From NCBI GenBank assembly GCA_028681275.1, contig JAQUIV010000007.1, positions 1 through 38,019 of the forward strand: 38,019 nucleotides of DNA, written 5' to 3'. How positions within the stretch are numbered: the stretch's first letter is position 1; each line of letters opens with the position of its first letter. Positions 4,494 through 11,174 of this stretch are shown one piece after another. The notes beneath the pieces were generated by a model that did not search any database, had not been told where the DNA came from, and was given only the letters and a program-made list of their open reading frames with translations. Source of the DNA: Aliarcobacter sp. GTDB lineage: Bacteria; Campylobacterota; Campylobacteria; Campylobacterales; Arcobacteraceae. The translations under genes and the position numbers were made by a program.

Positions 4494-5735
4494 TTAGAAT
4501 TTATAAGCAACTTGTAATCTTCCTGCATCAGTAGCATCATTATTTGCAGTTTCATATTGACCTAATCTTACATAAGTACTTAAGTTTTTAGAGTGTGCAT
4601 AAGTGATTTGAGTAAAGATCTCTTTTGCATCATCATCAACAGTATTTCCATTAACTTCATAGTGATTTAAAGCAATATTTAATTTAGGTAATACTTGAAC
4701 ACCTGCATGTAATTGTAAATAATCAGCATCAATTTGTCCATTTAAGTATGTATTCCATCCAAGCATTGCCGTACCAGCATCATTATCATATGCTACTAAA
4801 CCACCATCTTTTCCAGTTACACCATATGTAACTTTAGCATCAAAGATTCCAGCAACAGCAGAGATATAACCTTTTGTTAATTCATCATCAGTTGTTAAAG
4901 CATCTAATTGTAAATTAGTATATCTAATACCAGTACCTAAAGTTACACCATCTAATGCAATTTTGTAATCTGCAGCAGCAGTATAAGACTCTAATGTATC
5001 AACTTGGTCAGCATAGTATGCTTCTAAATCAACACCTGTAAAAGAAGTTTTAGCTCCAACTACAGCGATTGAATTAGCATCTTTCCCAACAGCAATTTTA
5101 TCAGCATTTGCAGTAACTGCATTAGCAGTATAACCTGTTGTATCAGTTACTTTAGCTGTAGTTAAAGAATGATTTCCAGCAGATTTAACAGTTGTTTTAC
5201 CAAAGTTTGTTTGATTAAAATAAGCACCGATGAAAGTTACTGGAGTTGAAGAATTAATTACAACAGCACCTGTTCCAGTTTGCTCGTTTCCATCTATTTG
5301 AGAAGCTACAGTCCAAGGAGTTGGAACACCCATTTTACCTGCTAATACAGTAGTGTCTTTAACACCTGTATATGCAAAATTTACTTTTGTTAATTCTACA
5401 GCAACATTAGCATCACCAGATGTTGAAGTATCAAATGCAGCATAATTATTATTTGCAGAAACAGAAGTGTTTAAAGCTACATCATCAGTGATACCAGCTT
5501 TTAAATTTGCAACAGCTTTATAATAGTTGTTTGTACCAGTTTTATCAGAACCTTTAACAGTTGTCTCTAATCCTGATGGTAAATTTGTATCATCACTGTA
5601 ATCATTGTATCTATAAACAACAGAACCAGATACGTCTACATTTTTGATTGCTTCTTCTAATGGTTGAGCATTAGCAGTAGTTAAACCAGCAACTGCAACA
5701 GCTGCTACTAAACTTAATTTTGCGATTTTTTTCAT
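4494..5735 (-). CDS. Major outer-membrane porin (Campylobacterota type)
   Basis: The 413-residue protein has a clear Sec signal peptide ending ANA before Gln24. The mature part is rich in alternating polar and hydrophobic residues, with many Thr, Ala, Asp and Asn and few Cys, and ends in Phe (VAYKF), the usual C-terminal signature of outer-membrane beta barrels recognised by the BAM machinery. The length and composition fit the major porin of Arcobacter/Campylobacter, which carries small solutes across the outer membrane. The ATG is preceded by AGGAG at ideal spacing. The gene has its own strong terminator, a GC-rich 5' leader and an array of phased repeats upstream, so it is probably highly and conditionally expressed. 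The substrate preference is not evident. Confidence 0.88.
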   Translation of the reverse strand: MKKIAKLSLVAAVAVAGLTTANAQPLEEAIKNVDVSGSVVYRYNDYSDDTNLPSGLETTVKGSDKTGTNNYYKAVANLKAGITDDVALNTSVSANNNYAAFDTSTSGDANVAVELTKVNFAYTGVKDTTVLAGKMGVPTPWTVASQIDGNEQTGTGAVVINSSTPVTFIGAYFNQTNFGKTTVKSAGNHSLTTAKVTDTTGYTANAVTANADKIAVGKDANSIAVVGAKTSFTGVDLEAYYADQVDTLESYTAAADYKIALDGVTLGTGIRYTNLQLDALTTDDELTKGYISAVAGIFDAKVTYGVTGKDGGLVAYDNDAGTAMLGWNTYLNGQIDADYLQLHAGVQVLPKLNIALNHYEVNGNTVDDDAKEIFTQITYAHSKNLSTYVRLGQYETANNDATDAGRLQVAYKF

Positions 5736-5829
5736 TTGTTCTCCTAAAATTTCGAAATCTTTTTTCAGTCTACCGGAGCGCGCGAACTCATCTAAAACCT
5801 AGGTCTTAAACCTTTTCCGACATACCGTT
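5736..5829 (-). promoter_or_regulatory. GC-rich, probably structured 5' leader of the porin mRNA
   Basis: Starting downstream of the predicted promoter, the transcript would have a leader of about 90 bases whose first two thirds are much richer in GC than the surroundings. GTATGTCGG (5825-5817) can pair with CCGGTAGAC (5776-5768) over 8 of 9 positions, counting two G-U pairs. The enclosed part contains the small hairpins GGTTTAAGACC (5812-5802) and GAGTTCGCGCGCTC (5789-5776), the second sharing one base with the long stem. An unstructured A/T-rich stretch with AGGAG then leads to the ATG. It matches no riboswitch class I recognise. Folding is inferred by eye. Confidence 0.5.
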
Positions 5830-5835
5830 GCGACC

Positions 5836-5841
5836 ATTCTA
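5836..5841 (-). promoter_or_regulatory. Putative -10 box of the porin promoter
   Basis: The minus strand reads ATGTAGAATGG. TAGAAT differs from the consensus at one base and would start transcription near 5829, at the start of the GC-rich leader. The expected -35 position is a poor match, which suggests activator dependence. Confidence 0.5.
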
Positions 5842-5883
5842 CATTACTAAATTTTAAAGTTTTCTTAAAATTGTGTTTTGAGT

Positions 5884-5943
5884 GTTAATTAACTGTTAAT
5901 TTAAGTTAGATTTCAATTAACCATTCATTAATGCTGTGTTAAT
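5884..5943. promoter_or_regulatory. Six helically phased TTAA-type direct repeats upstream of the porin promoter
   Basis: On the plus strand, hexamers GTTAAT, GTTAAT, GTTAGA, ATTAAC, ATTAAT and GTTAAT start at 5884, 5895, 5905, 5916, 5927 and 5938, that is every 10-11 bases. They occupy about -55 to -115 relative to the predicted porin start. Tandem half-sites one helical turn apart are the classic layout for OmpR/PhoB-family response regulators; PmrA boxes, for example, are TTAA repeats separated by five bases. The identity of the regulator is inference. Confidence 0.55.
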
Positions 5944-5981
5944 GCTATTTTCGGACTTTTTTTATCGTATTTTACTAGTGT

Positions 5982-9805: not shown

Positions 9806-11174
9806 TAAAAACGGACTTATGTTGGCGATTGTTATGATTCCAACAGCATTGGTTATTGGATTAGTTGCATTTATATTTTTATCACCTACATTTGAAAGGG
9901 TTGCACCTAAGGTTTTAATTGAAAAAGAGATTTATTGGAATTTACAAAAACCAATAAAAGCAATAATTTCAGATAATAGTGAAATACAGTCATATAATGT
10001 TACTTTTGATGATGGTCAAAAACAAGTAAAATTAGAAACAAAAGTTATTAAAAATGAAAAAGGTTCAATAGAACTAGAAATATTACCACCATCATTTGAT
10101 GAAATGAATAAACCAAAAGATGGAAACATTAAAGTTGATGTTTATGATTCAAGTAAATGGAACTTATTTAAAGGAAATCAAACAGTTACAAATTCTAAAG
10201 TAATTATTGATAAAAGAAGTCCTATTGCAAATGTTATAAGTAATTCATATTTGTTAAGACAAGGTGGAAGTGGAATTATTATTGCTGAAATTAATGATGA
10301 AAATATAAAAGATTATTATGTATCATTTAATGATGAAGAAGTATTTGAATTTTTCCCTTTTTATAAAAAGAATTTTTACATTTCAATTATCACTTGGCCA
10401 ATTGATATAAAAGAGTTTAAAAAAGTTAATATCGTTGCTGTTGATATGGCAGGAAATAAAAGTGTAACAAAAGTTCCTTTTTATATAAAACCTTTCAAAG
10501 AAAAAGTAGATCAAATCAAAATTACTGATGATTTTGTTAATAGCATAAGTAGACATGTTTTAGAAAATAGTGATATGACTATTCCAAATGAAATACCAGA
10601 AATTTTTGTTAAAGCAAATAAAGAACTTAGAGAAAAAAATGTTAAAACAATCAGAGAAGTTTCTAAGAAAAATCTAGAAAATAGTGGAAAAATTCCTTTT
10701 GATGTAAAAACATTTGTAAGAATGCAAAATGCTGCAACTTTTGCACAATATGGAGAAAGAAGACATTATACTTATAATGAACAAAAAATTGATGAAGCTT
10801 GGCATTTAGGTATGGATTGGGCTAGTTCAAAAAGAGCGGAAATTATTGTAACAAATCCTGGAAAAGTTATATATAAAGGTTATTTAGGAATTTATGGAGA
10901 TACAGCTATTATTGACCATGGATGGGGATTAGGAAGTTTATATGCCCATACAAGTAATATTGATGTTGAAGTAAACGATGAAGTTAAGACTGGACAAAAA
11001 ATAGGAAATACAGGGGCAACTGGGGCTGTATTTGGAGATCATTTACACTTTGGTATGTTAGTTCAAGGAATTGAAGTAAATCCAAATGAGTGGTTAGATA
11101 ATGAATGGATAAAAGTAAATTTAACAAAAACTATAAATGATGCGACAAAAATAATAAATGGAAGCACTAAATGA
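9789..11174 (+). CDS. Membrane-anchored M23-family peptidoglycan endopeptidase
   Basis: The 461-residue protein has an N-terminal membrane anchor (about residues 10-32), a long extracytoplasmic region with beta-rich segments, and a C-terminal LytM/M23 metallopeptidase domain. The zinc signature is complete: His339 and Asp343 in HLGMD, and HLH at 418-420. Such enzymes cut peptide cross-links in peptidoglycan; in helical Campylobacterota relatives of this group (Csd-type proteins) help set cell shape. The best start is TTG at 9789, six bases after AAAGGAAA and inside the previous gene; an ATG at 9819 would cut into the start of the anchor. The stop overlaps the lpxC start (ATGA), linking wall remodelling with lipid A synthesis. 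Confidence 0.9.
   Translation: MKFTNSKNGLMLAIVMIPTALVIGLVAFIFLSPTFERVAPKVLIEKEIYWNLQKPIKAIISDNSEIQSYNVTFDDGQKQVKLETKVIKNEKGSIELEILPPSFDEMNKPKDGNIKVDVYDSSKWNLFKGNQTVTNSKVIIDKRSPIANVISNSYLLRQGGSGIIIAEINDENIKDYYVSFNDEEVFEFFPFYKKNFYISIITWPIDIKEFKKVNIVAVDMAGNKSVTKVPFYIKPFKEKVDQIKITDDFVNSISRHVLENSDMTIPNEIPEIFVKANKELREKNVKTIREVSKKNLENSGKIPFDVKTFVRMQNAATFAQYGERRHYTYNEQKIDEAWHLGMDWASSKRAEIIVTNPGKVIYKGYLGIYGDTAIIDHGWGLGSLYAHTSNIDVEVNDEVKTGQKIGNTGATGAVFGDHLHFGMLVQGIEVNPNEWLDNEWIKVNLTKTINDATKIINGSTK

Follow-up and report, generated by a model that had tools for sequence, protein, structure and literature searches.

The stretch of DNA analysed here (the window, 38,019 nucleotides) belongs to an Arcobacteraceae genome that is 77% complete and in 157 contigs. 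Its porin gene (4494-5735, minus strand) encodes a member of the Campylobacter major outer membrane protein (MOMP) family (PF05538), and folB and plsY lie upstream of it on the same strand. The inferred 5' leader of the porin (5736-5829, minus strand) contains a conserved hairpin and the Shine-Dalgarno sequence AGGAG (5745-5741), and had no match above threshold in Rfam. The leader is near-invariant in the near clade, with a hairpin stem that accepts pair-keeping changes; in the other clade the hairpin is shorter, differs in sequence and covaries. Possibly the hairpin is an mRNA-stabilising 5' stem-loop. Directly before the Shine-Dalgarno sequence, TTTCGAAA (5750-5757, minus strand) is invariant or almost so among orthologs.

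The porin promoter has the -10 hexamer TAGAAT (5836-5841, minus strand), which places the inferred transcription start near 5829. The original prediction described the -35 as poor, and the hexamers 16-18 bp before TAGAAT indeed match TTGACA poorly; its suggestion that the promoter needs activation gains support from the conservation, phase and recurrence at other promoters described below. That prediction missed a separate element downstream of the array it described, an HsrA/CosR-type box, TTTAAG-AAAAC-TTTAAA (5853-5869, minus strand), that takes the place of the -35: TTTAAGAAAACTTTAA at 5869-5854 stands where a -35 is expected. Orthologous promoters were compared in a set of 32 from Arcobacteraceae (30 orthologs plus two from other genera), and TTAAG-N5-TTTAA-N12-TA[AGC]AAT, with a total length of 33, occurs in 32/32.

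The HP1043/HsrA motif of H. pylori consists of two TTTAAG repeats separated by a 5-bp spacer, just upstream of the -10 of promoters without a -35 (PMC5253667), and the CosR-DNA complex has two half-sites five bases apart (PMC10936212). Target promoters of HsrA in H. pylori and of CosR in C. jejuni share with the locus studied here the same TTTAAG-N5-TTTAA just before the -10 and the lack of a -35, and the DNA-binding domain of the regulator is near-identical. Searches with the HP1043 DNA-binding domain, checked against PDB 2hqn/2hqr, gave an HsrA/CosR match in 32/32 genomes searched; those from the same genus carry one copy of the domain, with about 92% identity. The source genome holds only a partial copy (90% identical, query residues 36-76, in an open frame of 50 aa), so the presence of HsrA there leans on its relatives.

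Genus-wide, among the matches listed for TTAAG-gap-TTTAA-gap-TATAAT, a length of 33 occurs in 60/141 matches and in 15/75 sequence families, where about 7 families are expected. Other promoters of the class precede catalase, CheY, chemotaxis receptor and molybdopterin-type oxidoreductase-like genes, their products being named by reading translations, not by family search. The catalase gene is a parallel to katA, which CosR activates in C. jejuni (PMC4943160). The porin promoter shows every sequence property of HsrA/CosR targets for which we tested. Motif, geometry and conservation of the regulator make the predicted control of the porin by HsrA/CosR well supported.

The HP1043 paper mentions no porin target (PMC5253667), and an additional upstream array of other half-sites, as seen here, is foreign to the HsrA/CosR class. 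In Campylobacter and Helicobacter, 3 of 37 non-redundant MOMP-type genes have the box (at least 15/17 matches), where 0.05 are expected. An HsrA-like box lies about 66 nt before the start codon of the Campylobacter MOMP-type genes L181, L184, L192, L200 and L217, and such boxes are commoner there than shuffles predict. CosR/HsrA control of MOMP may be older than the Arcobacteraceae.

Upstream of the box lies the array of six half-sites (5884-5943, minus strand). The six hexamers [GA]TTA[AG][TAC] begin at 5884, 5895, 5905, 5916, 5927 and 5938, all matching as originally claimed, with start-to-start spacings of 11, 10, 11, 11 and 11. Read in the porin sense they are ATTAAC (5943), ATTAAT (5932), GTTAAT (5921), TCTAAC (5910), ATTAAC (5900) and ATTAAC (5889). 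The argument that AT-richness alone is insufficient holds: when the 246-bp intergenic region that contains the array was shuffled 20,000 times with dinucleotides preserved, no phased chain exceeded 3, whereas the real sequence has one of 6, by a hexamer consensus that had been drawn after the fact. Elsewhere in the window there is no second phased chain of at least four hexamers.

Within the array, the distal pair TAGCATTAACACAGCATTAAT (5927-5947, minus strand) is an 11-bp direct repeat whose AGCA is also kept in the near clade, and the proximal block includes a perfect palindrome, AATTAACAGTTAATT (5887-5901, minus strand); distant orthologs have retained the direct repeat but not the palindrome. 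When the distal pair and the proximal block were each searched for across 31 genomes, close copies proved to be nearly confined to porin promoters. Spacing scans with single half-sites (TTAAC, TTAAG and AGCA pairs) were swamped by background. The candidacy of AGCA-N7-AGCA as the true motif was weakened, both by its near matches outside porins, which are coding or scattered, and by locus L148, which has phased TTAAT without AGCA.

Alignment of the upstream regions of the orthologs, proposed as a check with the original prediction, found the repeats and their spacing conserved, including across genera. In the 32 orthologs the offsets of TTAA[CT], counted from the box's TTAAG, are mainly -74, -63, -52, -41, -31, -20 and -9, and an extra offset, -24, stems from the palindrome. 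The window fills slots -74, -63, -52, -31 and -20, and TCTAAC occupies slot -41. Slot -9 is empty in the window and filled in nine orthologs, in a variable stretch without other TTAA[CT]; in these other species the array extends in phase toward the box. Slots have been gained and lost between lineages, mostly in phase; the porin protein tree has long branches, and slot gains were not dated from it. The distant genus members L017, L020 and L030 have the box and almost no array, and the array is absent from porins outside the Arcobacteraceae.

The box-anchored phase of the half-sites reaches V = 5.8 in 13 dissimilar sequences, a value matched in 0 of 2000 shuffles, although the orthologs are not independent and the statistic is inflated by the common ancestry of the sites at -31 and -20. 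A scan of TTAA[CT] periods in 13 dissimilar orthologs peaks at 10.5-11 bp. The per-column conservation profile showed no significant autocorrelation (p = 0.12); the proximal block is conserved throughout.

Besides the porin array, scanning for four hexamers at 11-bp steps picks up a second conserved one; it was seen in five relatives and belongs to the promoter of a predicted RNA gene, sRNA-1. This array, GTTAAC-N5-GTTAAT-N5-ATTAGA-N5-GTTAAT, ends 10 bp before the -10. The sRNA-1 locus is intergenic, upstream of a UvrD-like helicase gene, and the gene itself is unannotated, about 120 nt long, and ends in an intrinsic terminator. By DNA search it is present in nearly all genomes of the genus, with short matches only in G025 and G015; the source genome carries it on contig C40 (G000, 10934-11160; L252/L273). 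Compensatory changes occur in its predicted 5' hairpin and terminator, between which TTTTTATGTTTCCTTGTGT is nearly invariant and single-stranded. Comparison of sRNA-1 with Rfam gave no convincing match, and comparison with the porin start gave no pairing.

A matrix was built from the promoters of sRNA-1 only, porin sequences being left out, and its score at 5884 on the plus strand is 21.7 bits. There it matches GTTAATTAACTGTTAATTTAAGTTAGATTTCAATTAAC (5884-5921, plus strand), inverted relative to the porin; the score is the first in the 38-kb window, with 10.3 bits for the next best on either strand, and was reached by 0 of 1000 shuffles of the intergenic region. The two halves of the matrix may shift by one base relative to each other, and the porin site makes use of this. 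In near-clade porins a match lies at the equivalent place, again inverted and mostly with the same 1-bp shortening. This match is the strongest single result, being free of the consensus with which the array was first described; together with the phase test it provides support for the array that is independent of that consensus. On the porin the array is both inverted and set back from the core box, so that its regulator may either raise or lower transcription there.

Phased half-sites were also seen near CmoB-like genes. At L230 (G015:C104:51596-51634), in the space separating a CmoB-like gene from a divergently oriented one, ATTAATATTTCGTTAACGTGTTATTAACCTCATATTAAT contains four half-sites in phase. 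An HsrA-class promoter upstream of the CmoB-like gene at L057 (G010:C1:1433466-1435966) is preceded by three TTAA[CT] at 11-bp steps (-58, -47 and -36), which are out of phase with its box.

Further RNA genes are predicted behind promoters with similar repeats. The first, sRNA-2, was found in two genomes only (twice in G010, and in G015) and scores 32-38 bits with that matrix. Two hairpins and a terminator are predicted for its RNA, along with an unpaired stretch that resembles AAATTTTGTTCTCCTA. Pairing with starts was judged from single-stranded seeds only, since in full-length duplexes the terminators paired with A-rich starts and made the energies misleading. Perfect complementarity between the unpaired stretch of sRNA-2 and the porin Shine-Dalgarno/start region extends over 12 nt in G015 and 9 nt in G010. 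Among 26 starts compared with this seed, that of the porin pairs best; the other 25 were taken from the window rather than from G010 or G015. A pairing of 12 nt is reached by 1 of 5000 shuffled seeds. The second, sRNA-3 (G009, G014, G021 and G023; L281, L294, L270 and L271), has a weaker promoter (9-13 bits) and a short predicted RNA with an unpaired CTCCTCC-containing stretch. It pairs weakly with the porin, through this generic anti-Shine-Dalgarno stretch only, and is possibly a general anti-Shine-Dalgarno sRNA. Neither sRNA-2 nor sRNA-3 gave anything above threshold in Rfam. The absence of both from the source genome means little because that genome is fragmented.

What, then, reads the array? 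We think it rather likely, from the pattern of the DNA, that an OmpR-family-type array common to the porin and the sRNAs has been added to an HsrA/CosR-type promoter. The hexamers repeat directly and in tandem every 10-11 bp along one face of the helix, the arrangement of an OmpR/PhoB-family array. The original prediction of a multi-dimer OmpR/PhoB-family array is partly borne out: conservation, phase and recurrence at other promoters uphold a direct-repeat, multi-site type. The source genome has 25 Trans_reg_C matches, none of them linked to the array. Stacked, graded control of the porin, as first proposed, is plausible. The Arcobacter regulator CemR, which we take to be an HP1021-type protein, was considered for the array and set aside; the paper on it contains neither a motif nor a porin.

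The alternative that survives best, unlikely in our judgement but deserving of attention, is that HsrA/CosR fills the whole array by itself, binding tightly at the core box and spreading upstream over weaker RTTAAY half-sites. Against it, fifteen other HsrA-class promoters have no phased TTAA[CT] upstream. In the sRNA promoters the repeats are RTTAAY and stop 10 bp short of the -10, unlike TTTAAG with its 12 bp, and the sRNA-1 matrix recognizes the array but does not match the box. Spreading would nonetheless account for the TTAA core and 11-bp step that the half-sites share, in phase with the box, and HP1043 has multiple sites at rpoD (PMC5253667).

We regard as improbable a dimeric repressor or activator that reads the palindrome, with the outer hexamers incidental. 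The dyad is perfect and is conserved in the near clade, but L013, L014, L015 and L021 lack it and yet have direct repeats at -31 and -20, and the sRNA-1 arrays are direct repeats without such a dyad. Slightly more doubtful still is that AT-rich structural DNA (a UP element, intrinsic curvature or a nucleoid protein) boosts a strong promoter and that the phasing serves bending only. The region is 77% AT and is phased at the helical repeat, like curved DNA. However, the bases where a UP element would lie (about -43 to -55) are variable among porin promoter orthologs and those at -55 to -80 are conserved, and other genes share a specific pattern of four units that shuffles of equal dinucleotide content do not match. 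To chance in AT-rich intergenic DNA we give almost no credence: the consensus was picked after the fact and single half-sites are common, but the shuffles, the phase test, the four-hexamer scan, the sRNA-1 matrix and conservation across genera contradict it.

Returning to a second, OmpR-family-type reader of the array, the closest parallels come from two systems. CtrA, an OmpR-family protein of alphaproteobacteria, has the consensus TTAA-N7-TTAA, the same core and spacing (TTAA every 11 bp), and its sites lie at the -35 and further upstream, including at the multi-site pilA promoter. The same geometry is found here, with cores 11 bp apart at -74/-63/-52 and at -31/-20. CtrA belongs to a different bacterial group, however, and up to seven half-sites occur here. 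We do not file the array as a CtrA site; by analogy, CtrA suggests that an OmpR-family fold can read TTAA repeats at 11 bp. In enterobacteria, OmpR controls ompF and ompC from multiple sites (PMC3139631), and the stacked sites upstream of a major porin resemble the array described here. OmpR itself also activates sRNAs, some of which repress outer-membrane proteins, and here sRNA-like genes have the array. The sRNAs OmrA and OmrB are under OmpR control (PMC12692685), and so is MicF (PMC5745476). The half-site differs from that of OmpR, the regulator need not be an OmpR ortholog, and the sRNAs need not be related.

The mechanism we propose begins with the HsrA/CosR-type atypical response regulator, which would bind TTTAAG-N5-TTTAA instead of a -35 and recruit RNA polymerase. 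Further upstream, at about -55 to -115 from the inferred start of transcription, several dimers of an 11-bp direct-repeat reader, most likely of the OmpR/PhoB family, would occupy five to seven RTTAAY half-sites that share a helix face and would thereby tune porin output. Since the same repeat array occurs at the porin and at sRNA-like promoters, one regulator probably controls the major porin and the regulatory RNAs together. At the sRNA genes the array occupies the -35 position, and there the regulator would activate transcription. One sRNA of this putative regulon would, in at least two relatives, be antisense to the porin ribosome-binding site, and the regulator may thus set the porin level twice, by acting on the promoter and by way of RNA, in the manner of OmpR and its sRNAs. 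More tentatively, the locus may be part of a separately arisen OmpR-like circuit, in which one RTTAAY-reading regulator governs the porin and at least three new sRNA families, one of them masking the porin ribosome-binding site, over an HsrA/CosR-driven core.

Our search of the open-access literature (most subscription journals lie outside its scope) found no paper on sRNAs or on the regulation of porins in Arcobacter. What enters these emerging food- and water-borne bacteria, including antibiotics, depends on their porins. The analysis points to HsrA/CosR as the likely activator at the core, defines an exact array as the target of a proposed second regulator, and predicts three sRNA families with similar promoter arrays. 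It would also be a natural test of whether the pairing of porin and sRNA under one response regulator, known in enterobacteria, has evolved more than once.
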